A DNA stretch of 45,020 bases, taken from assembly GCA_009602725.1 (NCBI GenBank), contig WELB01000057.1, positions 323,310-368,329 on the forward strand, read 5' to 3'. Positions 73 to 44,906 of this stretch are shown piece by piece. The position numbers and the translations under genes were made by a program. Below the pieces are notes generated by a model. It had not been told where the DNA came from. It saw only the letters and a program-made list of their open reading frames with translations, and made no database searches. Each line of letters starts with the position of its first letter. Position 1 is the first letter of the stretch. The stretch comes from Spirogloea muscicola (Eukaryota; Streptophyta; Zygnematophyceae; Spirogloeales; Spirogloeaceae).

Positions 73-73
<1 letters not shown>

Positions 74-3000
74 CGGCGGCGGCCGCGGCCGCGGCGGCGG
101 CCTGCCCGCCGGACCCCTCGCTGTCTGCCATGGGCTACCTGCGCCGCATCCTCACGTCGCGCGTCTACGACCTGGCCATGGAGTCGCCGCTGGAGCTGGC
201 GCCCAAGCTGAGCGAGCGCGTGCGCGCCCGCGTCCTCCTCAAGCGCGAGGACATGCAGCAGGTCGCGCCGTGCACCGGCTCCGAAACCCCTAAACCCGCA
301 ACGCGGCTGAGGCTGCGGCCTCGATAGTGGGCTGCCTGACTGGTGCGGGGGCTCAGGCCAGCCCCGACTGCGTCCGAGGCCGTTGGCTCCACGTTAGGCC
401 CGACGGGAGGGCGCCGTTGTCGCAGCGCTGCCAGAGGGACCGATCGTCTGGAGCTCAAGAGCAGAGGAGTTGGGGTCTTCTCTGTCCTTGGTCGTAATTC
501 TCCAGGATTCAGGATTTAGGTGTTAACACAAATCTTAAGGTTTTGGGTCTTAGGTGTTAATAAGAACCTTAGAGAAATTTGCTCTTGATGACTCCTAATG
601 ACGCGACTGCAACTGTCTGCGCCCTGCTGACGCCTCTCTGCGCATCCGCCAGGTGTTCTCGTTCAAGCTGCGCGGCGCGTACAACATGATGGCGCAGCTG
701 CCGCCCGAGCAGCTGGCGCGCGGCGTCATCTGCTCCTCGGCGGGCAACCACGCGCAGGGCGTGGCGCTGTCGGCGCGCGTCCTCGGCTGCAGCGCCGTCG
801 TCGCCATGCCCGTCACGACGCCGGAGATCAAGTGGCTGTCAGTGGAGCGCCTGGGCGCCGCTGTCGTGCTTGTTGGTGACAGCTACGACGAGACGCAGGC
901 AAGCTCGTCCTGGTGCCCCACCACACTGTAATTCATCGACCAGATTGGCATCTACTGTGAAGCAGCTGACATTGCTGACTGTCATTTGGAAAAAGTACGT
1001 GCCAACCGCTACCAGGACCTGTGTTTGGCCTTTTGACTTGCCCATACTACTCGCACGATGCAAGACCTCTCGTAGTCTCCTTGAGCCCCAGCGCTCCTCC
1101 GTCCCAGTGACCCCACGTTGCAATCCCCAAAGCGGAGGCGCTCATGGGTTGCCGCGGTTGCACAGGCGTACGCGATGCGGAGGGGAGAGGAGGAGGGGCG
1201 GGTGTTCATCCCGCCGTTCGACCACCCCGACGTGATTGCCGGGCAGGGGACCGTCGGCCTGGAGATTGTGCGCCAGCACCCGGGGCCCCTCCACGCCATC
1301 TTCGTGCCCGTGGGCGGCGGCGGCCTCATCGCCGGCATCGCGGCCTATGTCAAGCGCCTCAGGCCCGAGGTTGGACCCTGTTAAGAGATCTCAAGGGTCA
1401 TGATGGAGGCTCAGATTTTGGATCCTGTTTGAGCGTAAGTGATATTGAGCTCAATCGGTGTCCACAGTGGCAGCCTTAACCTGCCGGATCAGGGCAACAT
1501 GAGAGCTCCAGCTTTCATCAAAGTGCGATCCTGATGTATCTGTAAGGGTTGCTCGCCTGCAAGGTGCGCATCATTGGCGTCGAGCCTGCGGATGCCAACG
1601 CCATGGCTCTCTCCCTCCACCACGGGCGGCGGGTGCAGCTGGAGCAGGTTGGCGGCTTTGCCGACGGCGTGGCAGTCAAGATGGTCGGCAAGGAGACGTT
1701 CCGCCTCTGCCAAGAGCTGCTGGACGGCGTCGTACTCGTTGGCAGGGACGCCATCTGCGCTTCCATCAAGGTAGAAGATCCTCTGAGCAGGACATTCGTT
1801 TGATATGCTATTAGGTTTGCTATTACGTGTACACCAACTTCCAGTGGTGGGGTGCTTGATGCACGTAACGTGCTCGTCGGATGGACTTTAGGACATGTTT
1901 GAAGAGACGCGGAGCATTCTGGAGCCAGCCGGGGCGCTGGCGCTGGCGGGGGCCAAAGCGTACTGCACCTACTATGGCCTGGAGGGCGAGGCTGTGGTTG
2001 CCGTAACCAGCGGTGCCAACATGAATTTCGACCGCCTGCGGCTCATCACAGAGCTGGCGAACGTAGGGGCGCGACGGGAGGCCGTGCTTGCGACGTCCAT
2101 GCCGGAAATCCCAGGGTCGTTCAAGACCTTTGCATCTATGGTATATGCAGGAGATTGAAGAGGCTTTGCAACCAGATCTACATCCACTGCTGCCATCTGC
2201 GATCCTTGCTTGTAGCATGTCTTTGCCAGATGCTCTCAGCAAAAAAAATCTAGACATGAACGTCGGCTTTTGATTCGCGTGTTGCCACTGCCCTGCCTCC
2301 TTAGGTGGGCCCGAAGCTGAGCATTACTGAATTTAAATACCGCTACGCTGACGACCGCGTGGCGCACGTCTTGTACAGGTGCAGGCTAAGCACCCAATCC
2401 GCGTGACATGTGCTTACACTGCAAATAGGACATTATTAGTTGAGCTCTGTCTTGACCAGCGGAGACGACCATCAGACCTTTGTGATTGGCTGCTCCTGGC
2501 AGTGTGGGGGTTCACACTCAAGACGAGCTCGACGCACTCAAGGAGCGCATGATCACAGCTGGCCTGCCGACCGTGGACATGACCTCCAACGACTTGGCCA
2601 AGGATCATCTTCGCCATCTGGCAAGCCCTTGCATGCATAAAGTCTGCATAGAAGGGCAGCCCATATTCCTCCCAAGTTTTGCTTGAGGCCCACCACATTG
2701 AGGCTTTCCTGGGGCATAACTTAACCAGCAGTGGACAACGCATGTCTCAGTAGGTATGCTGGTCCTGACGATAGAAGCTTGTGCCGGCAGGTGGGCGGAA
2801 GAACGGACGTGCCAAATGAAACTCTGTACAGATTTGTTTTCCCAGAAAAGCCTGGCGCCTTGGCCAAGTTCTTGCATATGCTGAGCCCTAGATGGAATAT
2901 CACTTTATTCCATTATCGATCGCAGGTGAAGCTGTAATCAAGAAGTGGCCAATTTCCTGACATTGATCCTCACAAACATACTGCACACTCTGACTTCGAC

Positions 3001-3299
3001 ATAAGTGTAGCTGATCTTACTACAACACTGTCTAACCTGCTGGATGCGCACTCTTAGTCGCAAACTGTATATTTTCCAGCTGTACTGAATTGCTGACTCC
3101 ATGCTTGCTCAACGTATATTCCTGATCAGAGTCATCCCTTCCTCTCCATGCTTGACAGGGGGAGATGGGTGCCAACTGCCTGGTTGGCTTGCAAGTTCCT
3201 GCCGATGAGGCAAGGGACTTTGAGTTGAGTGCGAATGCGTTGGGTTATGAGTATGAGAACGAGAGCGGCAACGAGGCCTTTCACATGTTCATGAGATGA
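73..3299 (+). CDS. OMR1: Biosynthetic threonine deaminase (threonine dehydratase), 5'-partial
   Basis: PLP enzyme converting threonine to 2-oxobutanoate, the first committed step of isoleucine synthesis; plastid-located in plants. Exons: 73-261, 653-898, 1166-1369, 1564-1770, 1892-2140, 2305-2378, 2503-2620, 2791-2925, 3159-3299, all in frame (501 residues counted from Met at 130). Visible motifs: [13 protein letters not shown] with the PLP-binding Lys, [30 protein letters not shown], and the glycine loop [12 protein letters not shown]. The C-terminal third holds two ACT-like regulatory segments (around [11 protein letters not shown] and [12 protein letters not shown]), as in isoleucine-inhibited enzymes. 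The Met at 130 is probably internal: the frame is open upstream (PPDPSLSA precedes it) and plant homologues carry a similar stretch plus a transit peptide there. Introns 2 and 7 appear to use GC donors (GCAAGC). The gene converges on the NAC gene. Confidence 0.93.
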
Positions 3300-3380
3300 T
3301 TGTAACATGTAGGGTCTGCAACTGCTGATGCTGGTGTTTGTCCTCTGTATGGCATGATGCTTTGAGGTTATCTTTTAAGA

Positions 3381-4725: not shown

Positions 4726-7712
4726 TCATGCTGCAAAAGGCATGTGGCCAAGTGATGATACCTCTTGCAGGACTGGGAGGACAAGGAGAGCAAGATCAGG
4801 CCTGTCGCACGGGTTCATGTGCGTGCACTCAAGTGCAAGCACCGCCACCTTGAAAGCCTGCGCGACTTGCCACTCTCCACCCTCCGTGTCCAACACGCTT
4901 GCCAGGCTCTTGCTCTCCAAACCTCCCGAGACAGCTCGCTGGATGGCTCCCAGAGCAGCGGTTGGAGGCAACCCGGTCAGCAGCTGCAGGAGGATGATGC
5001 CAAACGAGTAGACATCCGATGCGGGGCCAAAAACGCCGGTCCTGGGTGTGTCAGGATCAAGATAAGGAGACACTGACGCTCCTCGGCCTCCAAGCCGCAT
5101 TCCATCCCGACCTGCTGGTGGTGATGTGACTGCGGCAAGATCAACGGGGCCTATGAAAGCCAACTTGCTCAGCTGCTCTTGCTGGGGCACGAGCTTGGAT
5201 CCGCTCATGCTCAGCTGGCTCGGCGTGTGCACAAGGAGTACAGTGGATGGCTTCAGCTTTTGGTGCAGCACTGGCGGAGAGCGCGAGTGCAGGTATGCCA
5301 AGGCCTCTGCAATCTCCGCCCCAATGGTGAGCCGTGTGCGCCAGTCCAGGGCTCGGAGGTGCTCCTGAAGGCTACCGCCCTGCACGGCTTCATAGACGAG
5401 GCAGCCCTCTGCAGGGCAGCAGCCAATGAGTGGGACGATGGCAGGGTGCTTCAGTGATGCCAGGTGCAAGATACTGGACGCGGCCCCTGGTGCTCTTATC
5501 CGCGCGCCATACTTCTTGACGATGACACTGCCGCCGTTCAGTGCGCCAAGGTACTCATTGCCGTACTCAGCATCCTCCAGAATCTTGCTGGCAAAGTCAG
5601 GCGTTGCGAAGTTGAGATCCTCAAGGGAGTACACAGAGCACCCATAAGCGTCCTGCTCGGACACTGCCGGCTCCGCCACACGTGCCAGGTCCTTGCTCTC
5701 ATCCACCTCAGCCGCGGGCTCCTCAAGCATACTGATCTTCACAGCCAGGGCCTCATTCTCCACAGAGTTAACATCGCTGTGCTCAACATTCCACACCTCC
5801 ACCATCTGCGCCGACGGCAAGAAGTTCCGAGTAACATCCTCGGCCTTCCCAAGAGCCTTCAGCTGACTAAGGTCAAGGTCAGAGCCACCAAAGTTAGCTG
5901 TGATAAAGTCCTTCTCAAGGCCCTTCTTCTCTGAAGGGCTGCCCGCAAGGGGGCTCTCCTTGGGACTGCTCAAGTCGTCAAGCTTCCGCTTGGCCTCACT
6001 TTGGCCCCATTTGCCAGCCTTGCCACTGAAGCCACTTCGGCCGCCGGCGCCACTAGCTCCACCCAGCTGCAGGCTGCTCTGCATGTTCTCGCCCAAAGCG
6101 GCCACGACGCCGGGCAAGCTCTGCACAGCTGTCGGCTTGCCCCTCGCCTCCAACACCTGCAGCTCCTCCTCCTGTCCCTCCTCCTCAACCTCCGCTGCGA
6201 CCTTGGCAACCGCCTCCACCTCCACATTGCCCACGACATCGTCCTCCTCCTCCACAACGCCCTCCTCGCCCTCAACTTCGTCCTCCTCCTCCACAGGCGC
6301 CGTCTGGCCAATGCGGATGCCCTCCACAAGCTGCCTCTCTCGGCTCTCCCTGTCAGCGAGCTGGCGGACAAAGAAGTCCTCAACCACAGCATCCAGGACT
6401 GTGACACCCATGACCCCCTTGCCTTTGCTACTTGCACTGGTAGCAGTGGATACGCCAGCCTTCGGTACTGTGATTGACGGCCCAGCCTGCAGCTGCAGCG
6501 ACTGGTAGTTGCCCGAGGAGGAGCCTCTGGACGGCGACGGCGACGACCCTCTGCCGCCGTTGCTGCCGCCACCACCATTGCTGCCGTCATGGCCTCCATG
6601 GCCATAGCCTCCTCCACCAAGATTACCATGCGAGGTGCCCCCACCAGAGTATGCATTACCCCCGTGGCTTGCACCTGGAGAGCCTGAGCCAGAGCCCTGG
6701 CCGCCGTCATCGCCATTGGTCACACCCTGCCGCTCCACTAGGCTCATGTCCTCCACATCCTCCCTCACAACCTTGCAGATTACCCACGCATTGCGGCCAC
6801 TTCGCTCGTCCTCCAGCATCTCCACATCCGATTTGAGCGTGTACTCGTACATCTTCCACTTCTCCTTGGCCTCGGCAGGGCCCTCCCTTGCCCCCGGCTG
6901 CTTGAAGCGAAACATGCGCCGCTCGGGCCTCGTACCATAGATTGGCTGCAGAGGAAGCTCCAACCAACGCGGTGACCATTAAGAAAGTCCTTTGACAAAT
7001 GGCGTCCACTTGCAAAGCTTACAATGCATGCTCAGGTAAACAAGTGCTTGGTTTGTCCAAGTCTGCGACCAGGTGTGAAGCAGGACGACCTCCAAGCAAG
7101 AGAAGCATACGATTAATTTGGTCATCTAAGCCTGCACAGCCAGCCCAAGGCGAAATTTCAGAAGGGGCAGCTAGCGCACCAGGAGCTCATTGAAGTTGGT
7201 CGCCTGACAACTCTCCTTCCAGCACGGAGGCTTGGTGTCACCAAGGCCCAGCGCACACTCTCGTCGCCTGCGCTTTTCACCAGTCCTATACTGCGGCCGT
7301 ACAAAGAAGTAGCCCACCAACCCCAGCATCCCCTTATCCACTGGTGCTATGAACAACCCTGCATCAAAGGACAATGCAAGTGACTGGCAAATCAGCTCTG
7401 GCCACGTAATTGCGTGTGCTTTTGAGCTCTGGTGCTTGCTTTATGGTTTTGACATTTTATAGCCAAATTGTTCATGAGTAGAAGGAGAGCTTGCCAACAC
7501 ATACCTGGGAGGAGCCACGGACGAGGTTTTGCAAGCAGATCCACTTCAGGGATGAGACCATCAGGGTCAGATATCTTGCGAAGTTGATATGCAAGGTACT
7601 GATTCAACTCTGCCTCATTGACACCTGCCTGCATGCCCTCAATCTTACGCCACAGCCACTCAAAGACTTCATGCTCCGTTGGGGTAAAGCGGATGCCCTT
7701 TGGCAATGCAGC
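4726..7712 (-). CDS. NAC-domain protein fused to a plant-type pseudokinase
   Basis: Exons (descending): 7712-7505, 7358-7180, 6945-4726; frame is kept throughout (868 residues plus stop from the first base of this set). The NAC DNA-binding domain is spread over all three: subdomain A-like LPKGIRFTPTEHEVFEWLW, B-like LIPEVDLLAKPRPWLLPG, C-like GYFFVRPQYRTGEKRRRRE with CWKESCQ, then D/E-like KWKMYEYTL and WVICKVVRED. A Gly/Ser-rich and acidic low-complexity linker follows. The last 301 residues (4729-5631) form a protein-kinase fold like those of plant U-box kinases: YSLEDLNFATPDF, VIVKKYG with the subdomain-II Lys, HPAIVPLIGCCP, SDVYSFGIILLQLLTG, NPCDRPDL. The catalytic loop reads HQKLKPST instead of HRDLKPxN, and the DFG site reads GPVDLA, so it should be a pseudokinase. 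NAC subdomains D/E and the kinase share one uninterrupted exon, so the fusion is not an artefact of exon joining. No ATG begins the first exon; the N-terminus lies upstream. Confidence 0.82.
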
Positions 7713-10110: not shown

Positions 10111-10216
10111 CCTTTCAGCTGGCATCTCACAGCTCACAGCCATTGCCTTCCAATGGAGAAGCTATTTAATTTTGGCCTACTTCCTAGCCCCTCGTAGATT
10201 AGTGCTTCCCCTAGTG

Positions 10217-10871
10217 CAGCCCAAGTGTTGCACCTCCCTCGGCCACTAGAATTTGCCACGACCTCCTGCGAGATGGCATGCAGGGGTTGTTCATGGAGGC
10301 GGGCTACAAGGTGGCCGTGGAAAATTCCTCGGAAATGCCCATCCAGCGGGGTGCAGACGGCCAGCTCCATACCCGACGCGCCGACCTAGTTGCCATCTCA
10401 TTTTTCTTTTGCGGCGGTTCCCTCATCATCGCCGATGTGGTGACTACCGACTGCGTGGGCTCCGCCAATCTCACCAGATTGGCGACGACTGCAGGGCACG
10501 CGGTCGGCCTGGCGGCCCGGGGCAAGGAGCGAAAATACGCGGATCACCCAGTTGGTGATGAATTCGCAGCCCTGGCGATTGACGTACACGGGGCTTTTGG
10601 CAGCCGCTGGCTGGACCTCCTCCAGCGGCTTGCCCATCAGGCCATTGACCGGCGGCCGGGTCTGCCAGGGGCGATGCCCGGCTTCAACGTCGCCGCTTCG
10701 CTCGCTCAGGTATTCCGTTCGCGCCTGGCGGTCTCGTTTCAACGCTCCCTAGCCCACGCCGTCCACACGCGAGCAGGCCGTGCTATGGCTGCTGCCTCTG
10801 GGTCTCGGCGGAGTGCCTCTTTCCCTGCAGCGAGCTACTCTGACTTGATGTTGCTCACTCGCGGGTACTGA
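10217..10871 (+). mobile_element. C-terminal fragment of a retroelement polyprotein
   Basis: Open frame without a credible start (in-frame stop just before 10217; first Met at 10278), ending in TRGY and a TGA at 10869-10871. It resembles the region found C-terminal to the reverse transcriptase in plant and algal non-LTR-like elements: RADLVAIS and later IIADVVTTD (a possible nuclease-like core), FAALAIDVHGAFGSRWLDLL, then RSRLAVSFQRSLAHAVHTRA. No reverse transcriptase domain lies upstream, so this is a 5'-truncated copy. The same C-terminal signature recurs, more decayed, at 11013-11045, 11417-11459, 13178-13210, 13890-13937 and 26086-26118. Family assignment is from remembered sequence style only. 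Confidence 0.6.
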
Positions 10872-27530: not shown

Positions 27531-30500
27531 TCAGCCAAATCCAAAGCCCTCGTTAGCCTCGTGAATGGCAAGCAATAGGCGCTCCTCAATCTGCTCTTTG
27601 CTTGTGTACTCAGGGAGATCCAATTGATTGAAGCTGCAAAAACGCATGAGTGTGATGAGACATCAGTACTTGCAGACATGTCTAAGCTTTGCACTGCTTC
27701 TGTCAAAGGTCTCTAAGCAAAAAGACATCATGCGTGAAGTAAAGCTGGGATTATGTGCACCACTGCAGGTATAACTCAGGTGTCAAGATTGCACTGAGAA
27801 GGAGGTCTCTTTCAATCTGAAATGTAAGCTGCCTCAACAGTGCTCTAAATTCAAAGACCAGGAACATGAAGGCCGTGCACGCCAATCAGGTCAACAAGGA
27901 GGAAATGTAGTCGCTACCATGTGTGGGCTGAAGGTAGGCGCTTTGGAGCACCGTAAGCCTTGTGAATCTGGAAATGTTGGGGTCCTGAGATGCCTTGCAG
28001 TGCCTTGAAGCCCTCCAAGGGCACCTGAAGAAGGGTAGGGAAGCACAACACAAAGAGCACACTGCTGTCACAGATGCAGGCAGTGTAAGGTGCGAGACAT
28101 CTGCACTATCATAAGCAGCGATGTGATGGAGACGGCTCTCAGGAAGTACTCAAAGCTAGCTGTCTCTGCAGAATGTTACAAGTGGCATTGGTAGACAAAG
28201 CTGACACACTATCTGATCTGCATGCTAGATGTGTTGCTGCTGTCAAGGACCACCATCACATAGATGCCTTCCTAACACTAGCAAATCCTGGATGCTCAAG
28301 CCACAAACCTTTGACGTGCCCGTTATGAATTGCAGCAGGCGCGCACAATCCTCTTTGCCAAAACTCCGTACAGTTTCCCAGAACCACTGCACAACCTGCG
28401 AGGCACTAGTGTACCCAGTGTAGTCTGTGTTGTTCCTCAGGTCCTCAACTGTCACAGAAGAAAGGGATGCAATTGACAATGTCACTGCCCATCCTCCATG
28501 ACAACTATTTGAAATGATCATCATGACAGCGGCTCTTTCTGAACAGAACGCTTTATTTCACGTAGTTTCTCTGCCTAAATTCTCTGCGCCTACGGAGCTT
28601 CAGGCTACTGCCTCACCATCGATCTCAGGGAGTCCCGAGATGAGGAGCTCCAGCTCTCTGTCATTGAAGATGGAGATCAAATCCCTTGAGATCAACTCTT
28701 GGAACCCCTCCAGGAACGCATTGATCTGGGGCCTGATTGCAGTGGTCATTCTGTGTTCAGCCAAGAGATCCACATACTCGGCCTTGTTCTCCTCTGTGAC
28801 TTTGATGTTTCTGCCACCTGGCATGAGTTCGTGATCTGTCACCTGCACGAGTTGGTACAAGGAAGATGCGATGTGTGCGTCAGTGCAGACTCCACACTCG
28901 TCTCAGATCACTGCCAGGTTGTTCTGGCGAGTGCACTGCCACTTGGGTGTCCTTGGCAATGCAAGCTAACTGCCCTTGAAGATTACAACTTCGTATATCA
29001 TGTAGTTCTTGTTTTTGATCAAGCGAGTGGTCATATATACTACTTGGTCATAAGACACGACACATATAGAAGTGGTCTCAGCGCAAAAGCAGCCTCTGCT
29101 GGCAACTTGATCCAGGACTGCATTGCCTACACCTGCTGCATGACCTCTGCGTGAACTATGTAAGGAAGCTCGTGCATGGAGGAACTGAGACGTTGCCTAG
29201 GACTTTGTACCTTGCCCTTCTCATAGAAGATGAGCTTCTCTTCATCAGCATCCACGCTGAAGGTCAGGTCTAGTATGTCTGTCACATCGTTCTGCATCTC
29301 ACAAGATCCTATGTCAATTCGACATTACAGAGAAGATCCTTCCAGTGGATGCATTGCTCAAGGAGCACGGATCCATGGCATCGAAGAAAATGGTCCGCGA
29401 CAAACTGTGCTTGCTTACCTCTAGCATCCACTTCAGGTTCTTGTAATAGTCGGGGTCGATTGCTTCAAGCTCGTGATAGGTGACTTTGGCACCCAGTATG
29501 TGCTTATAAAAGGAACGTGTGAAGTGCACGTCTAGAAGCTGCCCATCAAAGAGAGCCTTCGCAACCTGGCATACACATAAACGAAAGAACCACTGCTGAG
29601 CAATGTCATCACACCGGCAGTGCTGCAAATTCATTACTAACTTACCACGTTGTTGCTGCATGCATGTCCAGATAGGAAGTGGTGGTGTGACTTACCACAC
29701 GGCCGACAAACTTGAAGTAGGAAAGGTGCTCGGTCTGGTAAACAGAGTTTGGGTTAGGCTGGAACGTGGCGTCATTCCCCACGGTGGTGAATAGAAGTGC
29801 ACCCCGATCAAAGATCACTCTTGACAGGAGCTGATACCACTCTCTGGTGAGCCCCCCAGCATCGATGCCCTCCTCCCCTTGGAACTGGACAGTGAGTCGG
29901 CCCCTCAGCTCCTCAGGAGTTCTCATCCTCAGCTGCAGAGCAGCCCGTGCAATGCAATCAGAGTAGCTCGTGCGTGTGTCTTTTGTTTGTAAAAACACAC
30001 CTGTCAAATCAGATTACAATTGCAAGAGCGCCATGATCTCTTAATTGAAGGCTAAGGAGGATACAGAATGAAGCAGACAAGATATAGCACCTGATTGTAG
30101 GAGTCTTCCAACACATAAGCTCTTCGCACGCAGATCCTCAGTGTCCCGTTGTAGTGGCCAGGGCCCTGCGCTTGTCCCTCCTGCTGGAGCTTGATCCTTG
30201 ACCTGAAATGCTGCCGCTTGTTGTCGAATTCGAGCAAGCGAGGAACTCTGAGCAGCAAGTCTAGGGAGCCCTCGAGCAAGGAGGGGTTCTGCCTCACAAA
30301 GGCATTCATCAGCTTTCGGTGCCTCTCAGCAAACCTGGCTCCCATCTGCTCTCCTTCGCTCTCTGCAATCGACGATTGGGTCCTCATCAACCGACTTGCA
30401 CCGGCCATTGACGAAGATGCGGACGTGGACGGCTCCGTCGAGCTTCTCCTTGCCTCGTCGGCTGCTGTATCATCGGCCTCGGCAGCAGGCTTGGTGGTGC

Positions 30501-33500
30501 TCGGTGCCGCTTGCATGGAGGAGCTGCTGCCTGTTGCAGCTCGCATTCTGTGACAGAGGACAAAGAAGGCCTCCACAAACGGCAGCACCTTATGGGTCCC
30601 TGGAGGCAAGGGTGGCAACTGACTAGCGCCACCGGCCACTGTAAGCGCCTCTGCATTCGGTGAGGAGTCTGGCAACACGGCCGGAAGGGAGGCCATGCGG
30701 CTCTCAATGGCGGCAATGCAATGCGAGAGGCCTTGCCAAAGGGGCTCAAGTGCCAGGTTGAGCTCCCTGGCCAATGCGAGGCCTGCATCAGCAACAACAC
30801 GAGCCTCCGACTCCGCCTTTGCAGTCTTCTCATTCTGCAAGTGCTCAACCAAGAGCCAAGTCACTGATTAATTCCTCAGCTCAGTCAAGTGCTGTACACT
30901 TTGCATATAAAGAAATCCAATCTTTTATAGCTCTGCGAAGGCCACGGAGTGCAAGGACAGGCCAGTGAGCGCACCGGTTGAGGGAGAGAGATGAGGGTGC
31001 TGATGGCCTGCAGGACTCGCAGAAGTGCTCCGCCAGACATGGTGCTCACGGCCACAGGTGCCACTTCACCGGCAAACTGCTGGAGCTCGGCCAACGCTGG
31101 CCTGCTGAGCTGGCGCGCCACGTTGGACAGCTCCTCCAGGCAGGAGCGCCTGTGGCTGACAACAACTTCTGCCAGCAACTTGACCACCGATGCGACCCTA
31201 GTATATGCCGCTTTTGTGAGCCTGGCAACATAATAACGCACTGAAGTGAGAATACGGGCAAATGTTCAGCAGTCCCATGACGATCATGGTGAACAGGCTG
31301 TCAAGCAAGCAACCTACACACTATCAGGGCTCCAAAAGTTCTCAGTCAGCAGGTGGTGAATGTAAAGTTGCTGAGGGAGTTCAAATGCACAGCATCTTAC
31401 ATACCCCTCCTGAGCCAAGAGGTTGCAGAGTAATCGCAATTCAGACTCTGGGATTAGAGCCAGCACTGCCGCTGCTTCGTTGTTCTTTGTGATCCTGGTG
31501 CCTGCAGGGTCAGGCTCAGTCTCCTCCATCTCCTCCTTGTCCTCCTCCTGCGGGTCAGGTCCTGGTCCGCTTGCAGAGGCTCCTGGCAGACTACTGGGTG
31601 CAGCTGCAGCTGAGGCGGCTGAGGCCATTGTGTCCCTGCCAAAAGCGGCCTGGAGCTCTGCAGACGTCACGCTTGGTTCCTCATGGCCTGCATTTGCAGC
31701 AGCATCTGGCACGGGGCCTGGAGCATCCGCAGCCGGTGCCGCATCGGATGGAATCTGAGCAGGCTTGGGCTTTGTCTGCGAAGTGGAGGAAGCGGCAATC
31801 TCTGTTCCTGCGCTCTTCACAACCACCTCAACCAAGGCCATGACCTGACAAGGTGCCCAGGTGTCAGGTTAGCTCGTGTTTGAGGAGTATCTGTCAAATC
31901 ATTACACTCAAATACAGAAAAGAAGTACACACAGCAAGCATGGCGTAGTCACCTGTTCCAGATGGCTGCTGCTCTGGGAATACATAGGCTGTCGAAGCAG
32001 CTTGAAAAGAAGGACAACTGGGATCTGGTTTTCACTGTCATCACGTTGTTCTTCCTCAGCTACTTGTCCTTCAGTAGCCTTTGCCTTTCCTTTGTCTCTC
32101 CCTTCGACTGCTGCCTTCCTTGAGGGTGATTCTGGCAAGCTGGGGCTCAGGTAAAGCAGAAGCTGGGCTACCTTGGGATGGTGCCTGGCCAGGTATGCCA
32201 GGATATCCAGCACACGGCGCGACACAAGGGGCGGCAGACCTGAGAAAATATGCTTTGGAATCTCAGTGGCAGCAACGTGCAGCCATGTGTGCAGGTGTCC
32301 CCATATGCAACTGATAACAAGCATGAGTTTGCAAAAGCTCTGGAAGCCGAGTAGCTGCATTATCCAGTCTTGACCACGCTCAGTGAAGCTAAATGCAAAT
32401 TTCTGTGCGTATCCTAAAATTCACCAACTACTGGGACGCAATGGACCTTGGTCAATAACACGTGACAGAACAGAGCACCACAACCTGTGCCCATCCTCAA
32501 GATTACTTGGTGTCATGCATACTAGCCAGACCGGGGCTTCATGAAGAAGCACAAGACCCTACTTAAACGTTTTGAGCGCACCTTCATAGAGCTGGGGGCG
32601 GACATAGACAACATTTGACTGGCACCCAAAAAGCCTTGCTTGTGAATCTTTCTCTGCACGAGGTGCATCCATTGTACTTCTCTGCTGAAGCATCTCCAGC
32701 AGGAGGTGGACAAGAGTGACACGTGTGCTGCTGTGTGCACATAAATTCAGCAGCAGGCGCTGGAGCAGACCCTTACCAAGAGGCTGCAAGAACAAACGTG
32801 CATCTATCAGTCTTTGCCATAAGATCTTCGTGGTATAGCTAATCGTTGACCATGTTCAGCAACTTGTAACAGCAGTTGAGGATGGAGCACACAGAATCGA
32901 GTGTCAGTCAAGCCACAAGAGGAACTCAAGTTTCTCATGCTAGCCAGTTCCTGACCTGAGCAAGTCGCAGCAGTCGAATCAGCGCTTCAATTGCGGACCT
33001 TTCCAACAGTGGAGGGCCCTCTATCTCCTTCAATCTTCCCCCCCCCTTCATTCCCAAGCCCAACTGAGGATAGGCTCCCCGTGATCTTGCATTGAGAATG
33101 TCACTGTCAGAACTTGCAGCAACCACCCCTGCAGTCTCCAGAGCACGTGTCTGGAGGCGATTGTGATGTTGGGAGATGGCTTGCCGCCTGAAGAGGCCTT
33201 GCCTCTGATACTGGCTCATGGCCCTCTCTCTCAACAACTGAGCCTCTGCAAGCAAAGCGGGTGGTAGAGCCGCAAGCACCGCTTCGGAGGAGGTCAGCAG
33301 GACCTGCAAACAGAATACAGGTAAAGAATACACGCTCAATAATCTGTAGGTGCTCCAGTAAGGCCTTTGCAAGCACATCACAATAACGTGACTAGTATAT
33401 CTGACACAGTGAGCTTTGCCTGCATTAGCATGTGCTTTTCACTTATGCAGGTTGTTCTGCTCGCTGAAAGACATACAATCAGGTGAACCACCATACCTCC

Positions 33501-36500
33501 TCCCGAAGCTCAGTAGGAAATGTTGCAATGATGGACGCGGAGTCCATGTCCACTGGCTGTCCCTCCACCGCAGCAGCATGTGCTCGCATCAACCGCCTAG
33601 CTCTCTGCTGCGCCAATACCTCTGCCTGAATATCTGGTGGTAGAGCAGCCAAAAATTCTGGATCAAGCTCCTCCTCACCCTCCTCGCGTGGTGGAAGCCC
33701 TTCTGAGGCCCCAGCGATGCCTGCGACAGCGGCAGCAACATTCCTGGTTGCTGTGCTGGAGGATGCTAACACCTCAGCCCTGAGCTGCTCTGGAAGGGCC
33801 TCGAGAAAAGTGGGATCTATGCCACCTCCTCTCACAGAGACCTGAGTCTCATCTGCAGTAGCATTTGGCATCTCCTGCTCGTCAGCTGGAGCACTGGCTG
33901 CGGTGCTGGCCTCTCTTGCAACACTGGCTGCCATATGAGCTGGCTCTGTGGAAGTGCCACCACCCTCAGCACTACTATCTGCGGGGGGCCTCGATGCCTG
34001 GCCCTCCAATATGCTTGTTGCCACTGTTGCTTGTTGAACAGGCTGGCATTGCTCAGGAACAGGTTGCAAGCCTGTAGGAGGTGAAACCTCTTCCATTGGC
34101 ATGGCCGAAGCACTAGAGGAGCTGCCAGGGACAGCATCTTCCTGGCCCACAGCTTGTGCTGGGTCGCCGTCAGCGCTCCCAATCTCCACCTCCAAACTTC
34201 GAAGGCTTTCGCCCACAGTTGCTGCGCTACCACCACTGTCCTGGCTTGCAGCACCATGTCCTCCTCCCATCTGAATATCAGATCCAGCAGGGCTTCCTCC
34301 CACAGGTCTTTCCACCAGTATTGGTGATTCTTGTACTGGCTCACGCAAGTGCCCGCTGCTTGTGGCTGCGGTGACTTCAGGCGCGACCTCGCTCTCGACG
34401 CCACGCGTGACAGCGACTGCATCAGGTGGGCCAGTAGTCGGCTGCGTTGAAGCATGAGCAGCTGGTTGTGGGCTCATCTGGTCCACAAATTGCTCCTCAA
34501 TAGCTTGCGCCATGCGCGCAGCTAATTGCCCGTCTCGCCAGGGCTGCCCATCATCCGTCCAACACGTGAGCCTTCCACCAGGTACATCTGCTCTGTGGCT
34601 GCGGTGGTGGTGGTGGTGGCGATACAGCGCGTGGGCCTGTCTGCTGCCATTGCCGCCAACCACGAAGGAGGACGGCTCCAACAATGAAAAGTCAGCAAGC
34701 GAGTGGAGCTCGCCGCCAGCTCTGTCATTGGGAAAAAGCAAGCCATCTCCATCTGCTGCTGCTCTCATCTGCTCTGCAAGCTCAGCACCGCGGTCCCGGG
34801 TGCTGTTGGGGACTGCCAAACCTCCGCCCTCGTAGAGTAAGAAGTGTGCTATATCCCCGAGTCCGTTTGATGGCCCTCCACCAGCCAGCAAAGACTCCCG
34901 GTCTGCCGTTGCCAGGGCAGCCCATTGATTCGCTGCGGCCTCATTGCCACCTCTGTTGAGAGAGAGGCGTGGCCGGGCAAGGAGGGGGTGAGGGAAGGCA
35001 CTTCTATCGCCGCTGGCTCCGCCACCAGCGTCTCCGCTGCCTACAGCCCCAGTTCCACTGGCTGCGCCTGCCGGGCCCGAGAAAGCACGGTAACCGCTCT
35101 GCCTCCGCCTCTCTGACCGAACGAGGTTGCTGAAGATGTCATTGATGTTCTCAAAGGCGGCGCCAGTGGCCATGCCTGGGATGTCGAGAAGGCCACCTGC
35201 TGCAGCTTGCCCCAGCAGCTGCACATGGTTGACGCCCGTCAAGCCATCCCTCCATCTCACCTCAATGACGCGTTCATCTTCCAAGTTCTCTCCACCCTGC
35301 GCCCCCTCTTCCCCCTCACCTTCCACCTCCTCCTCTTCTTCCTCCTCTTCTTCTTCCTCCTCCGCATCCTCCTCTTCTTCCTCTACAATGTCGTTCTCGT
35401 AGTCGTCTAAACCATGGTTGTCTTCGTGATCCTCCCCGTCCGTCTCAGGTGGAGAGCCAGGGATACCTTCCTCTCCCTGGAGGAACATGGCAAAGGGGGA
35501 AATTTGAGCAAGCCAGCCACACAGAGAGGTATGCATGTGTTATTACTGTGAACACGACAAGTATGCCAATATAATTAATAAGAGGAACACACCTCCACGT
35601 CCTCCCCCTCCTCGTCTTCCTCGTCCTCATCGTCGTCTTCATCGTCTTCATCCTCTTCGTCATCTTCGTCGTCGTGGTCCTCTCCACCCCCTTCACCGTC
35701 CATATCGTCCTCATCATCCTCCTCCTCCCTGCCAAGATCATGCTCCATTCTGAAAGTCATGGAAACAGCAACAGTCTCCAGATCTGTCGCGTCTTCGGCT
35801 GCCTCTCGCAACATCTCCTCCTCCGCTTCCTCAGCACTGGCCTGTTGCTGCAGCATGTACTCCTCCCGCAGGAGCTCCTCCCTTTCCCTCTCGCGTGCTC
35901 TTTCACTTCCCACATCTGCTTCTGCTTCTTGCAGGGACTCCACGCCCTCCTCGCGATGATCCTGGCCTGCACTTTCTGGGCCACCTCCTTGCCAAATGTC
36001 GGCCTGCCCTCCTCCTTCTTGCATCACGTCATCAGCTGATGGTTGAGATCCCTCGGCCCTCTGGTTGGGACCTGCATCCAGGTTGCTGGCTCCAGTCGCA
36101 TTATCCGCCTCCGCCGGCAACTCAGCGGCAGGAGCCGGTGCAGCAGACGTCCTACCCAGGACATGCAAGGGCTCTGCGAGCTGGACACGCGTGAGTGCCT
36201 CCAGGGACCTCAGGAGGTTGTTGAGAAGCTTTAGCACGTGCGGATGATCCAAGTCCAAGACCTGGAGGATGCCTGTCAGGGCAGGCACCATCCCAGCTTC
36301 CGTCATAGTCTTTGCCATGTCTGCTGCAAATAGGTTGCCTTGACTGGCACCAAGAGCTGTTGCGTGGACTGGCAGGAGCCGGTGCGTCAGGTCAATGAGG
36401 GCCAGTAGCTTGCGGTTTGAGACCAGGCAGCCGCTGCCCCGCATCTGCTGCACAATCTGCACCTCCTCATTGAGTGCTTTCACGATCTCAGCTACCACCC

Positions 36501-39500
36501 GCCGTCGCCCCTCGCCTGACCTGGCACAGAGCGACAGGATGAAGTATTGGGCCTTCTCCGCCACCTTCTCCGCCTGGTTCAACTTCTCCTCCCCCTCGTC
36601 CTTGGGCTCGGCAATGACAAGGCTGTGGAGGACATGGTTTATGAGCCCCTGCTTTCCTGCTTGGCAGCTTTCTGTATCCCTTCTCAGCACAACCTGAGCC
36701 GCAGCGGAGTAGAGCAGCAGGACCTCCGTTAGCAGCTTCAGGATGAAGACCACTTTTGGCGGGGCTCGCTTGTCCTCTTCTCCTCCAATTCCCACCCTTA
36801 CCTTGCTTTTGCCTTTGCCCTTCCCCAAGCTGGCAGGTGCAGTAGTGTTCCCCTCATCTACTTCCATGGCTGTTGCTAGTTCCTCGGGCAGGTTACTCAG
36901 CTCTGGCCGCCCGCCCATGCTTGGCAGAGGCGACTGCTTGATGGCCCCCAACAGCTGGTCCACAACCTGCAAAAAGGTGTGCGGCACCCTCCTGTGGCTC
37001 CTAGGCTGCTTGCTCGGTTGCTGCGAGCTGGTGGCTTCACCTTGTTCCTTGGCCCTTGCAGTCCTCTCGTCGCTCGCCACCATGGCTGCGGTCCCCTCAC
37101 CGCTCCCCTGCAAGCCCTTCTCTCTTTCCCTTCCCTTTGGCTTCTCTTTGTCCTTCTCTCGCTCCTTGTCCTTCTCCTTTTCTCCTTTCGGAGCAACCAG
37201 CACCACTGTTGGCCTTCCACCAACAATCTCCACTTGGCAGACGGCCATCGCTGCCTGCATGAAGACGGACGGTTCTCTTCCAATGACAGGAGCCATCACC
37301 GTCAGGAACATCCTCAATGGAATGCGACCGTTCTGCCTTGCCAGCGTAGATGTCAGCGTGTGCCGGATTTCGGCCTCCATAGCAACCTGCAACGTCAATG
37401 GGTCCTCCAGCAGGTGCCTGACCACAGCTGAAGCCACCGTCTCGAAGCCAGGGAAGAGACTAAAGGTGGGCAGAGCCAGCAAGGCAGTCAATCCTCCGCT
37501 CTCCAAGAACTTCACTGCCACAGCGTGCGATTTGGTGAGCCGAGTACATGCCTGGAGGACAGCCTGTGTCACGGAGCCTGGCAGATTTTCCTTGAGGAGT
37601 CGGCAGCATATGTCCATCGCTCTCCACTGCTCCGCATCTGTAAGGTACCCTGTCTGCTGGCCGAGGACGTTCGCAAACGGCACCTTGTCCCCTGCATTAG
37701 TGGCAGGCATAGAGGGCCCTGCCTCCTTGCCCAGCAATGCCTGAGGAGCTTCTGATGATTGAGCACTAGCCGCTGGCGACTCTGGCAGGTTATGTTTAAA
37801 CTGCTGCATGGTATCAATGACCAGTAGCAGGGAGGAGATCCACTTCAAGACCGTAGCAGTGCAGCCCGACGCTAATTGGCCCTGCTCCACAAATTGTTCC
37901 ACGAGGTCAAGGACCACCCCTGCAAGGCCAGCCTGCGCTGCAACTTCCCTCAGTGTGCCATCCTCGCTGAGCAAGAGCGCCAGCAGATGCGCAATTGCCG
38001 CTGTCTCGGAGCTCGCTGTGGGCACCTTGCACTCCTGTAGCCTCCTCAACAGGCAGCCAATGATGGACTTCTTGTCCTCCCTGTCTTTTCGGGCTGCCAT
38101 AGTAACTAGCAGATCCGTCAGGGGATAAGCGAGTGTATCTGACTCCCTCAGAATGTTTATTACTATTGCCACCATATCTTCAGTCCCAGGGCCTTTGGGT
38201 AGACCGCCTGCAGCTGAGTCTGCCACCTCATCGCTCTTCCCTTGCTCGGCATTCTGGTCCCTGCCTGTGCTGCCCACCTTCTCCTTCTGCGGCTCGTCCA
38301 CAGTGCCCATTGACATGGCGAGGGCTTGCGCAAGCTCGTCAGCTTCGGCTACCCTTGCTGCCGCGCCGCCGGCACTGTCTGCATCCCCTGCTGGATGGGA
38401 GAACAACCACTCCATGGCCATCTCGACGCTGTTGGTCCCAACTCTTCGCAGGGCCTCCTCAGCTCTTTCTCGGGGAAAACCCATCTCTACAATCACTGAA
38501 ATGGAAGCCTCGTTTGGAGGAACAATGGGCGCCCGAGCAATGTGGAACCCGCCAGGGGTACTGCCACTCTTGGTGGCACTGCCCTCCGCTGAGCCTCGGT
38601 AGACGTGCGTAATGATTGCTACCACAGACTCCACCAGACTGGGCGGGCAATTGTGGAAGAAGGGGTGCGTCCACATGGGCATCACAGCCTCCAGGATCTC
38701 CACCTGCCCACACAACCCACGACTCTAAGGTCCACGAGTCCACCCACACGATGTCATCGATTTGCTTGCCTAGACAACACAGTCAGCTCAGATGCTTGGA
38801 AGCTTCAATAGCTAACATTCACAATAATCAATATCGATGTTCAGAACAAGGGTCTATTTCCAGTTGGTAGAGCTCAACAAGGAAATGTCACGTGATGCAC
38901 AAAGACTTGGCAAATGTCATGATAGCCACACAGTACTGTATCTGCAGTCTGTACAAACCTGCAACATTAGCATGACAGCCTCTGGATCCTTGGGCAGCGT
39001 CATGGTTGATCCTGGCAGGGGCTGCACCAACAAGGCAGCTGAAGCTGGTTGTCCCAAGACAAGGGTAGACGCCACCAATTGCTCAAAGAGTTTGGCAAAG
39101 CTGCGAAGCCCGTCAATCAGCCACGGAGGACATGAATTTGTTCCATCATGTCCAACTTGCACCAAGTTGGTGCCTACACCTGCCACGAGGGATGAGATGA
39201 GTTAGCTACAGCACATCAGGCTCACTTGTACAACGAGACCAATCAAACTGCTACATCAAGTCACAGCTTATCACATTTCTGCAGATTGCCAGCTGAGCTG
39301 TTGTGCAAGCAGAGTACCATAATTCCACAGCAGTTGGCTGGTAGCTCGGAAGAGGTTGAGCAGCTGCTTTACAGCACCATGGCCATAGAGAGCTCCAAGC
39401 ATGGCGGTATTACACAGCCTGCGCCTGTTATCAAATAAAACCGCCGTGATGTCGTCCACGACTCTTCCAATGTAGTGACACTTGACAGAAGTGTCTGGCA

Positions 39501-42500
39501 GCTGCCCGCCTGTTCAGCAAGCAAGTGCTTAGAGTACTGTTTACTTTAACCCTTAAATTCACATGTGACCTGCAAATGAGGATGACACCTGGCTGATCTT
39601 CATCAACCCAGCTGGCCGTGCACACTGCAGTGCATGGCTAAGTGGAAGCAGATCTATGCATATTCTGACTCCTCCACCGTATTTGTGATACACATGCCTG
39701 TCAACTATTTGCAAGAAATGTCAAGTATCAATATGAATATATGTTAGATAACCATCTTGAATTCCAATGCCACACTTGCACTGCTTAGCAGGAGTACCTG
39801 CCATGTTGTCCTGGAATTCCAGACTTTCTTGCAGCAACTTCGCAAGAGCAACTGCCATTGCCTTAGCTGGCTGGCTCAAGTAAACAATGTCCTCCCTGTA
39901 AGATAGCACGGAAACTAGTGAAGAGGTAAGGTATCCAGCGTACGCAAGAAACATGAAAGCATGAATCTTGCTGATAGAAGCACACCAACTTGTGATGTTG
40001 AGAGTGAGGACCATGTGAGCAACTACTGGACTAGCAATGACAAAAGCTACACAGTCATGTGCATCCCACTTATAGCATGCAAGATCCACAATCCAGTATA
40101 GGTGGCTCACCGACGTCGAGACGGTACGATCATTGCTTTACTAAGTGCTACAAACAGGAGTCGTGCAGCACCAACCAGCCGGCCTAGCATATCCACCTGC
40201 ACAATCTCTTGTGGCTTGCCTTTGCTCAGCTCGCTCTGCAGAGGAGCCGTGCTCGCTTCCAGGTCGCCCTGTGTTGCGTCCACATGGCGGGACACTCGAG
40301 CTATCCGCCGACCACCACCATGATTGGTGGCAACTGCTGCTGCAACCCCGTCATCGAGGCGACGCCTGACCATCTGCCTGTTGTGCCGGATGGCCAGCCC
40401 ATCCCCGGCCCCATCGATGCCAGTCATGTTCAGGAAGTCCACATCCATTGCCCACTGACCACCATCTTCTCCTGCACCCGCAGCCGACCCTCCATCTCTG
40501 GACTCCGCGAACTGCACTGCTGCAGTCGTCCCACCAGCTTCCTCATCCCCTTCAGCTGATAGATTTGGAGTTCCTAGCCCAGCAGCTGCAACTTCCCTCT
40601 CTTCCTTCTTGGCCTCTTCCTTCCTGTCGCTTGCCACGGCCAGTTGCCACTGGATCTGTCGCTGAAGCTGGCCAGCATGCCCCAAGACTTCAACATCATG
40701 ACTGCCCATCTCAGTCAGCATGGTTGGCGAACTCCTCACCAGTACAGCTGCTAATGCGAGCAAGCACTCTGCTGCTGCCAGTGACTTGGCCAGCTTCGCT
40801 CGAGTTGAAGCCTCCAGGTCGATGAAATATGTGCCAGCTGTCAACGTCGTTGTCGCGAGCTCCGTGGCTGACCTTAGCTGCTGCCGCATTCTTGAACAGA
40901 CGGCCTTCACGAGTTGACTTGAGTGCTGTGTTGAAAACGCGCGGAGGGTGACAGACATGCTATGTGCTGTGGCCGACCCTCCAAAGCTGACCGGCAAGGC
41001 AGGCAACGTGTAGAGGTTCAAAAGTGCCTCGATGCCCCTCCGCTCAATGAACAAGCGACTGCTGTGTGCATTGGCCAACATGGAGTCCAGCAGTCGTGTG
41101 ACATTGTTGATGGCTTCTAGCAGGAAGCTCTCGAGCTCTGCCCCGTCCAGCTGGGGTGTTACAACTGCAGCTGTGGCAGAGGACAGACCAGCCGGTGGAG
41201 CTGCGCTTTCGCCAGTTGCACTCTCCGTCCCATGCTGGCCCTGCTCACCCCTCTCCTCATGGTCAGTCTCCATTGGGACAGGGGTTTCAGAACTGGACGT
41301 ACCAACTTCAGCACTGCGCACAGCAATGCCTTCAGCTTCAGTCAGGTCTGCCAGCCCCCTTGGATCCTCTACACTCATGTCCCCCTGCAGCCTAACGCCT
41401 TCGCCTGGCTCCTGATCTGCTGACATTGGCGGCCTATCTGAGCTCTGCAGCTCCTCTGGCTCCTCTGGCGTCGCTCCACCAATGCTTGAGATTGTCCTTA
41501 GGATGTCCAGGCTCATATCAATGCCGCTCGGCCTTAGATTTGGAACATGCCGCATCAACTCCTCCAGTCCTGCACCTAGAACCGAGGGCGTCTCCCCTGA
41601 CAAAGCCCGCATGTACTGCTTGTTGGTGAAGACGGGAACGAAGCATTTCAGGGCACCTGCATTCTGGACGTCTTGAAGACCTGAGGTGTTCAAGCAGAGA
41701 GCAATGAGAGCATTTGGCACAGAGCAAATTGCCTCGGCAGGTGGCATGATACCTGCGCAGAAGGTCCATGTGCAGTCTCATGAGAAACAATGGGAAACAG
41801 TCAACTTCTTCTTGACCAAATGGACACTGAGACTACCACAAAATTACGACTACTCTCAGAATGTAGACATATAGAGGTTATAGAGGTATTGCACAGGCTT
41901 CCACATACCCACAGACAGACAAAGACTGCTAGCACATTCGGTACATTGGACAAATCAGGTCTCAGTTGTCCGAGCACATGACATGGAAGACAGCTGGTGA
42001 GCTCAAATGCAGCGTGTAGGTGTCAACAGTCTGCCGTGTTACCTGCGGACAGGGATTTCAGGAAAGCCCTTGGCAGGCCTGCAGCGTCAAGGGCAGGATA
42101 GCAGGTTGGATCATGGTGGATCAAGTCACTCATGACGGAAGCAGCTAGAGAGAATACGCCACCGCCGAACTCTTTTGCGTGCCTGAATATTGTGCTGAGG
42201 CACGCTGGAAGTGCGTGATCCTCAGGGCCGTGCAATCTCACATTGCTACCTGGTGTGTACAGTGCAAGAGCAATTGCCCTTAGCAAAGCCTTGAGAAGCA
42301 ACCTCTGTGAGGAAGTCACGAGGACGTCAGCGGAAGGTGCTGTGCCCTGCACAGGCGCGTCACTGCCCTCCACTATCGGAGATTTGCCTCTGCCTGGCAA
42401 GGAGCCGCTATCCATAGCCTGGGGCTCAGCCATGGAGTGCACATCTGCCTCAGCGATCCTTCTCTCAACCACGCTAAGCTCCGCCTTCAGCCGTTCAATG

Positions 42501-44906
42501 GTGTCATCAAGGCCCCCAATGTCTCGGAAGAGCGATGAAGCCGAGTTGCTGAAGTCCATGAAGGCTTCCAAGATGTGGACAGCAGAACTGACTATGTGTG
42601 TGTGGGAGGGGTTGAGGTCCTTGAGCAATGGTAGCAGGGTGGGGACAAGACCAGCCTCCCTCAGAGCAGCACATCCAGAAGAGCCGGACACTAGAGCCGT
42701 CACCAGCGCCAGCAACGCCTCGACAAAAGGGACGGAGCACCCCCCCGAGTCACCTGCCGCGACTGAACCGATGGCTCTCTGCATGAGGCTTGGCAAGATC
42801 TCCTGATGGCCACCAGCAGAGATTGCCGTCAGCACTGTGGACTGCCTTGAGCGGTCCTGCGCTTGTGCTGCCAAGGCTCGCAAGGCCAGTGTCCTGATGT
42901 CCTCAGGCACCACTTTCTCCAAACGCACCAGCATCACCAGTTCACCAGCAAACTCTGGCTCATTCGCGAAGAAGGTTGTCAGATCCTGGTGGTCGGGATT
43001 GGACTGCAGCAAGACCGTGAAGGCCAAGAGCCGCACCCGGACATAGTCCTGCCTGCTTGCTAAAGACGTGAAGGCCCTTGCAAACCGCAGCTGCGTCAGC
43101 AGAGCAAATCGTAGCTTCCATGGAACGTGGTGAGCTGCCACCAGCTCCTCCAAAAGCTCCAAGTCAGTGTGCACGTTCTCATGCACAGCTGGCATGTTAA
43201 TGACCTGTCGACCAGGAGTAGCCCTGCTCTTTGCCCCATCAGCACTTTTGCTGCCATCCTCCGAATAGAACTCTAAGTGTAAGGTAGAAGCTCTCTGCTG
43301 CACCTCTGCACTGCACGCTCCCTCGACTGAGCAGGCAACCAGCCCCACTCCCTCATCCTTCCCTCCCCAGCCTTGTGAGAGGCAGAAGAGACGAGCATTG
43401 ATACCCGGCTCTCCAGACCACCTAAGGCTCCTGCTCGGGTGAAATGGCTTCCGTACAAATGCTGCCAAAACCCCAAGCGCTCCTAGTACAACTCTGACAT
43501 CTGTGTATGCCAGTAGCAAAGACATATGCTGCAACACACCACCCAAAGTCGATATCAGCTGATGTCAGTTGCATGATCCCAGGAGATAGGTCTAGCACAT
43601 AGGCAGATGAATTTCAAAGAGGAAACGCCAAGTGGGAGATTTGCCAATGGTAAATGAGAGTGCACAGCCCCTCGTCAAACGTAATTAACCCCATGTCGAT
43701 TATGGCCTCTGTCTAAGGAAGGTGTACATGGCTTCTATCCTTGCCCAACCCTGGACCCCAAGTTTTCTTCTCACCTCGCATGAATTGTATAAGTGTTTGT
43801 TGACGCAATTCTCCAGGATGAGCCTGGTCACCCGCAGTATCTGCAGGACTGCTTCTGTTGGGAATGGACCATCCACTCTGTGCACCTCAGTGTCTCTAGG
43901 GCTTTTGTCAAAGTGCAGGTCTGCCCTTGGCTTGACATGAACCTCAAAAAACGCATCAAAATGGTTCAGTAAGTCGATCCAATGGTTGAAGTCACCCTGC
44001 CAATACATGAGACAAAAAGGACAGGGCTGTCAGCAAGCTGTGCCAGAATGCTACATTCTTCTTTATCTCCTCATCCCTCAAGCTTTGAGGGGTTCTACAT
44101 CTCTGTTTTGCAATAATAGCTGCCACTTCTATGCAAGTGCTTTCAAATGACAGATAGTTTGAGTGGTAAACAAAGCACTTCGTTGTCATAAGTACAAACA
44201 ATTGGCTTCCGATTGTAGATAGAGAAACCAACATCAGCCTGAACATCAACTCCCAAATCCAGGCCCCCCACACCAAGCATGCAAGAGGGCCCTGCTGCCA
44301 GGCACCACACCACTCTACCAATTGCAAGGGAGAGTGGACGAGGTCACGACTGAGGAACCTCACGATTGGTTTTGATGTACTCTCTTGACAAGGGGGGCCC
44401 TACTTTGCCAAGGGTAGCCCTTATCTGCAACTAATGTATACACGTGTAATTATGGAGAGTAACAGCATACCTTCTCATTGTCCAACCGAAGGGCAGCCAG
44501 AGGTACCTCGATTTTCTCCAGAGGTGTGCTTGTGATCTCGTCTATGATTGCCCGCACTCTAGCAGGCTTCACCAGCAAGGAGACCAACAAGGCCGTCAGT
44601 GAACAGAGCAGGCGGTTGCTGCTTCGTCCTAGGCCTCTCACTTGTTCTGTGGGCTTTAGGTGACCGGAGCACGGTGCAGGACTTCGCCGCTGAGCATCGC
44701 GCGGAAAACCGGCACTGGAGCACAACACAGGCGACCCCGCTCCTGGCCCCGAGCTGCCAGAGGGGCGTTGCCAGGACAGGCTCGCATGTGGTGCATGTGG
44801 TGCACGACGTGCGCCGCAGATTGACTCGGACGATATGAAGAAGGGCCGCACAAGGCGCCGGGTTTTCCCTCACCGGCTCGACGCCCCTCTTCTTCTTGGC
44901 CTTCAT
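27531..44906 (-). CDS. UPL1: Giant HECT E3 ubiquitin ligase, UPL1/UPL2 type
   Basis: Ubiquitin-protein ligase of the plant UPL1/2 (HUWE1-like) class. Exons (descending): 44906-44874, 44566-44471, 43996-43775, 43528-42043, 41752-40111, 39895-39798, 39509-39318, 39179-38959, 38703-35593, 35476-33497, 33303-32956, 32783-32582, 32239-31953, 31844-31405, 31197-30975, 30834-30091, 29932-29696, 29565-29419, 29291-29211, 28842-28617, 28448-28309, 28024-27918, 27633-27531. They total 12,366 bases (4,121 residues; Arabidopsis UPL1/2 are about 3,700) and every junction is in frame. Domains in order: N-terminal armadillo-like DUF908/DUF913 region ([35 protein letters not shown]), UBA (about 1396-1434, [20 protein letters not shown]), UIM ([12 protein letters not shown]), long acidic runs at the exon 9/10 border, DUF4414 with ubiquitin-binding-like repeats ([34 protein letters not shown]), and the HECT domain ([20 protein letters not shown]) with catalytic Cys4088 in [14 protein letters not shown]. 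The end is EANEGFGFG. Confidence 0.96.

Follow-up and report, generated by a model that had tools for sequence, protein, structure and literature searches.

A NAC domain fused to a probable pseudokinase of likely U-box-kinase descent in a gene with three copies in an algal genome

In land plants, NAC factors govern programmes of stress response and of the cell wall. The locus described here raises the question of whether a NAC domain and a plant-type kinase fold can be encoded as one protein, as an initial annotation of positions 4726 to 7712 had proposed. It lies in a window of 45,020 nucleotides (C57:323310-368329) from Spirogloea muscicola, an alga that seems to belong to the sister class of the land plants, and the genome searched is assembled into 471 contigs with 153,112,186 bases in total.

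On the minus strand, the segments 7712-7505, 7358-7180 and 6945-4726 have GT...AG borders and matching phases, and they join into a frame of 868 residues. NAC subdomains A/B lie in 7712-7505 and subdomain C in 7358-7180, where the initial annotation had placed them. The annotation was also right about the third segment, a single uninterrupted exon of 739 codons plus a stop, which carries NAC subdomains D/E (6945-6760), a linker and the kinase fold (5637-4774). The linker begins with a Gly/Ser-rich stretch (6759-6502) and continues through 6501-5638, where conserved blocks occur and which includes an acidic stretch (6297-6238) and a basic, Ser-Pro-containing block (6000-5935). A C-terminal tail with the stop codon (4773-4726) ends the frame.

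A Pfam search of the joined 868-residue protein matched NAM (PF02365) at residues 35-166 with 39.0 bits (cut-off 27, E 1.3e-9) and PK_Tyr_Ser-Thr (PF07714) at residues 603-849 with 53.0 bits (cut-off 23.1, E 3.9e-14), and PF00069 scored 51 bits (cut-off 31.7). The NAM search of the joined exons had been set beforehand as the test that could refute the fusion, and its score lay above the cut-off. Searched exon by exon, the same profile matched one of the five stretches below the cut-off, exon 7712-7505 at 22.3 bits, and gave no match in the other four. Pfam detected neither a U-box nor an immune-receptor domain in the joined protein, and in NCBIfam the only models matched were bacterial kinase models, far under their cut-offs.

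The three exons of the annotated span were correct, but three more upstream had been missed. With 8633-8475, 8222-8110 and 7963-7852, all on the minus strand, the protein reaches 996 residues in six exons. The first of these begins with ATG, and its frame and donor are conserved in three genomic copies with no indels; the next two encode an N-terminal extension, charged and helix-like in 7963-7852, and their splice sites and open frames are conserved in the three copies. Further upstream, on the minus strand, there is a candidate first coding exon, 9361-9157, whose frame is open in all three copies, whose variable columns before the donor fall 3/0/13 on the codon positions, and whose phase-1 donor would fit the acceptor before 8635 in frame. 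The same region holds an open reading frame of 83 codons (9361-9110, minus strand), likewise open in all three copies, with changes of 5/1/14 by codon position. This frame is probably the first exon, but could be a separate small open reading frame. The predicted product would have about 996 residues, or about 1,065 if the candidate 5' exon is correct, and its predicted order is an N-terminal extension, the NAC fold, a flexible Gly/Ser and acidic linker, and a C-terminal pseudokinase.

The same fusion, with the same introns, occurs in two further copies, on contigs C82 and C291. These align to the window at 87.5% and 86.5%, over a stretch that reaches from about 9.5 kb to 2 kb or lower, and in both of them the six exons form an open frame with conserved splice sites. 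With two additional fused copies, the join can be put down neither to chance nor to a single faulty join in the assembly, and an assembly artefact was ruled out on this ground. Over 6945-4765 of exon 6, the three copies differ by a single 3-base indel, which lies in the Gly/Ser-rich stretch, and their five introns hold 9, 2, 4, 9 and 5 gap runs. A three-way comparison of 6945-4729 gave 219 variable columns, distributed 49/42/128 on codon positions 1/2/3, with an unclear third-position excess in 2 of the 12 full 60-codon blocks (codons 120-180, 7/4/5; codons 240-300, 4/8/8). The single indel and the third-position bias indicate that the linker and the kinase are read in the frame of the NAC domain. 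In the C82 copy the C-terminal tail is conserved; in the C291 copy it is replaced by 29 different residues, followed by a stop.

We calculated dN/dS for each pair of the three copies by the NG86 method, at dS of about 0.13-0.20. The NAC segment is the most constrained (0.04, 0.05 and 0.06 by pair), and the kinase gave 0.22-0.25 in the three pairs, with 0.35, 0.43 and 0.26 for its N-lobe and 0.14, 0.18 and 0.20 for its C-lobe (p < 1e-6 in each pair). The mid linker gave 0.25, 0.29 and 0.34 (p 5e-7 to 5e-5), and the Gly/Ser stretch 0.25, 0.45 and 0.18, of which the second value is not significant (p 0.21). These ratios indicate that the NAC domain, the mid linker and the kinase are under purifying selection. 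For most of its length the linker therefore changes in the way of protein-coding DNA read in the frame of the NAC domain. This speaks against two genes, and a gene boundary within the linker was ruled out as the main reading by the conservation of the frame across the three copies. We conclude that the NAC-kinase fusion is almost certainly real.

What kind of kinase is attached? By sequence, the domain is of the plant RLK/Pelle type, and its best matches among solved chains are SYMRK (E 3.9e-21) and ScRIPK-type chains (E about 1e-20 to 1e-19). Its catalytic motifs are lost, as the term pseudokinase in the initial annotation implied: HQK (5265-5257) stands for HRD, Phe takes the place of the Asp of DFG, the glycine loop has degenerated, and the alignment has a gap at the helix-C Glu. 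The beta-3 Lys is conserved, and the letters of HQK, AFIG and IVKK are identical in all three copies. The domain is probably a catalytically inactive pseudokinase, judged by these motifs, and an active kinase was rejected on HQK for HRD and AFIG for DFG in the three copies. AlphaFold, given the kinase of the window as a single sequence, returned a mean pLDDT of 37.2.

Plant U-box (PUB) kinases are a known class. Outside the three copies, the best match to the fused kinase in the genome lies on C266 (104.3 bits), with a counterpart on C122, and each of these two genes encodes a coiled coil, a kinase and a U-box. In a FastTree analysis of 10 sequences, a small and partly fragmentary sample taken from one genome in which the C69 and C94 kinases are partial domains, the fused kinases grouped with the PUB-type kinases with a support of 0.976. 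A kinase core of 165 residues scored 95.5-100 bits against the PUB-type kinases and 33-77 bits against four other RLKs. The descent from a U-box kinase that had been proposed for this domain is supported by these genome matches and by the tree. None of the 32 U-box matches, among 39 candidates scored in the genome, is on C57, C82 or C291. An exon break lies inside the kinase of both C266 and C122 and none inside the fused kinase; either the capture of a spliced copy or loss of the intron may explain this difference.

We also searched the genome for relatives of the NAC part. At E <= 0.1, an exon-wise search of 13 candidates gave six genes, namely the three fused copies and three NAC-only genes on C80, C49 and C48. 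The NAC-only genes are 63-64% identical to the fused gene over subdomains D/E and stop 186, 177 and 186 codons past the NAC domain, respectively, and the stretches surrounding them yielded no match to a kinase. NAC genes other than the fused one likewise come in threes (C175/C16/C38 and C80/C49/C48), which fits the recent whole-genome triplication of Spirogloea muscicola reported in passages of PMC10487979. Many weak NAM matches, of about 26-37 bits, cluster on C21, C264, C348 and C9 and perhaps represent a divergent, locally multiplied NAC-like family.

The gene structure also resembles that of NAC genes. The donor follows PWLLPG in phase 1, and the position and phase of this PWxLP-G intron are common to all four other NAC loci checked (L005, L006, L007 and L021). 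Single-sequence comparison to solved NAC structures was weak, with a best E of 0.006 (7xlj), and five of the nine matches listed were the unrelated mitochondrial bS16m. By profile match and gene structure, the product would be a NAC-domain protein. The basic block KRRRREC, shared with the NAC-only trio, and the WxMxEY strand are conserved in the fused NAC. The recognition strand WKATGxD, however, is not matched; exon 7358-7180 reads CWKESCQA at this place, and a NAC-only sister reads CWKVCQTT. The corresponding strand of ANAC019, YWKATGTD, is reported in passages of PMC7147800 to read the major groove. The altered strand suggests that the DNA specificity of the NAC domain has changed or been lost, and of the NAC DNA-binding domain originally proposed, the NAC profile stands and the DNA binding is uncertain.

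A second candidate fusion of this sort, of NAC with a PUB-type kinase, was seen on C404, at about 1927-6203 of L026 (G000:C404:17500-25500). There, the frame of a canonical NAC gene stays open past a breakpoint and goes on into PUB-gene sequence that encodes a coiled coil and a kinase. The stretch homologous to C264 extends to L026:3719 and the one homologous to C21 to L026:3818, and homology to C18 begins at 3855; the C21 and C264 counterparts of the NAC gene end in stops. The C404 kinase has HRA where C18 has HRD, and no U-box match was found on C404 among the 39 candidates scored in the genome. The chimaera occurs once, its contig is 48 kb long and the stretch contains no N; both a true translocation and a misjoin are consistent with this. 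That this genome has seen two or more joinings of NAC to a PUB-type kinase, an old fusion (window, C82 and C291) and a young one on C404, is an unlikely proposal. If both fusions are real, NAC factors and PUB kinases would be natural partners, and in this alga a single protein would link a cytoplasmic kinase pathway to transcription with no catalytic cascade in between.

How might the window protein work? The reading that we prefer, and to which we give an even chance, is that it is a NAC factor with a non-catalytic docking or regulatory pseudokinase module. A PUB-type (U-box) receptor-like cytoplasmic kinase would have lost its U-box and its activity, and the degenerate kinase would have been captured within the last exon of a NAC gene. 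The pseudokinase would not phosphorylate. Its role would be one of docking or allostery, for the most part by way of the C-lobe, the lobe under stronger constraint, and kinases or E3 partners of the ancestral pathway would control the NAC factor through this module. The NAC factor would form homodimers or pair with its NAC-only sisters. As a guess from the letters, activation may be the task of the acidic segment, and the Ser-Pro sites may be phospho-switches. In favour of this reading are the two Pfam matches in one joined protein, the two further copies with open frames and identical splice sites, the coding pattern of changes in exon 6, the dN/dS values, the loss of HRD and DFG in all three copies, the grouping with PUB-type kinases, the phase-1 NAC intron, and the reported action of the plant pseudokinase NIPK with a transcription factor. 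The weak match of the NAC part to solved structures, the low mean pLDDT and the non-significant constraint on the Gly/Ser stretch in one pair count against it. So does the replaced recognition strand, because DNA binding by the NAC factor may have been lost.

Ranked next after the docking mechanism is a reading that takes this loss as its starting point. The NAC part would no longer bind DNA alone, and the protein would be a scaffold or a dominant-negative dimer partner that brings partners from the kinase pathway to ordinary NAC proteins or to the NAC-only sisters. The replacement of the major-groove strand, here and in a NAC-only sister, speaks for such a scaffold, which we regard as possible but unlikely, since the NAC domain is the most constrained segment of the protein (dN/dS 0.04-0.06) and since conservation of KRRRREC and WxMxEY means that binding to another site is possible. 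It is improbable, in turn, that NAC and kinase are encoded by different transcripts, through an internal promoter or an alternative 3' end, with the long frame being incidental. The linker is indeed long and partly of low complexity, but its middle part is coding in the frame of both domains in three copies (dN/dS 0.25-0.34) and holds neither a frameshift nor a stop, while the introns are broken by the gap runs counted above.

The remaining explanations concern the kinase part. Conservation of the beta-3 Lys and the constraint on the domain would fit a kinase that is still catalytic through an unusual mechanism, yet Lys for the Asp of HRD, Phe for the Asp of DFG, the degenerate glycine loop, the gap at the helix-C Glu and the identity of HQK, AFIG and IVKK in all three copies make this very improbable. 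We give marginally less weight still to a recent, lineage-specific accident heading to decay, in which the kinase part would have no function; the degenerate motifs and the diverged tail of C291 are what such a decay would leave, but three copies hold the frame at dS of about 0.13-0.20 and the C-lobe is constrained in each pair (dN/dS 0.14-0.20, p < 1e-6). The least probable of all is that the pseudokinase is an integrated decoy that baits a pathogen effector, a role put forward for domains fused to plant immune receptors. Kinase and NAM domains are both known as integrated domains in plant immune receptors, according to passages of PMC4759884, but Pfam found no immune-receptor domain in this protein, and a NAC factor is not a receptor.

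With a NAC protein that carries its own pseudokinase in three copies, direct signal input to a plant transcription factor through a built-in docking domain becomes testable, and with it the possible coupling of signalling to transcription that the initial annotation had put forward. A further prediction from the fusion is that, in land plants, NAC proteins and PUB kinases encoded by separate genes may bind each other.

Other features were observed in the same window. It starts with a run of 72 A, directly followed on the plus strand by exons at about 73-3300, which by eye resemble those of a threonine deaminase gene. An open frame of 218 codons at 10215-10871, plus strand, resembles by eye the endonuclease end of a LINE-type retroelement. 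At about 30052-43564 on the minus strand there are several long acidic open frames of up to 1049 codons, with a UBA-like stretch; judged by eye, they are perhaps one large UPL-type E3 ligase gene.

A NAC protein with a kinase fold had been thought unknown when this locus was annotated, and this did not hold. Mohanta et al. (2020, PMC7147800), who surveyed 160 plant species, list in passages of the paper NAC chimaeras, predicted from gene models, in which a protein-kinase domain either precedes or follows the NAC domain, so that the kind is already known. Among the nine algae of that survey, the same passages give NACs in Klebsormidium only. Those chimaeras are like the present one in having a NAC and a protein kinase in one predicted protein, in both orders; they are database gene models, with no mention in these passages of pseudokinases, copies or selection, whereas the present fusion was checked in three genome copies. 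Our literature search found no account of a NAC-pseudokinase in Zygnematophyceae. PMC11096116 reports 209 Pfam combinations unique to Zygnematophyceae and does not name NAM with Pkinase in those parts of its text that bear on them; its tables may list the fusion. As far as this search shows, what is new is a NAC-pseudokinase derived from a U-box kinase and retained in three copies within an algal genome.

Within the genome, the NAC-only trio is like the fused gene in subdomains D/E, the KRRRREC block and the phase-1 intron, and the fused gene has its NAM match above the cut-off; the trio has short tails where the fused gene has a C-terminal pseudokinase. From NAC transcription factors, the fused gene differs in its altered recognition strand. 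The PUB kinases of C266 and C122 are the closest kinase relatives found for it in the genome, but the fused gene lacks their catalytic motifs, U-box and kinase intron and has a NAC domain in front. WRKY19/MEKK4 also combines a plant transcription-factor domain and a kinase in a single protein, although, as described in passages of PMC4759884, it is a WRKY-NLR-kinase immune-receptor fusion with an integrated NLR and not a NAC. Finally, the plant pseudokinase NIPK acts with the transcription factor NF-YC1 and is suggested, in PMC9532615, to be a positive regulator. According to the same paper, NIPK and NF-YC1 are separate proteins that interact in the cytoplasm and at the plasma membrane, and the transcription factor is of another family, unlike the NAC domain and pseudokinase of the window, which are joined in one frame.
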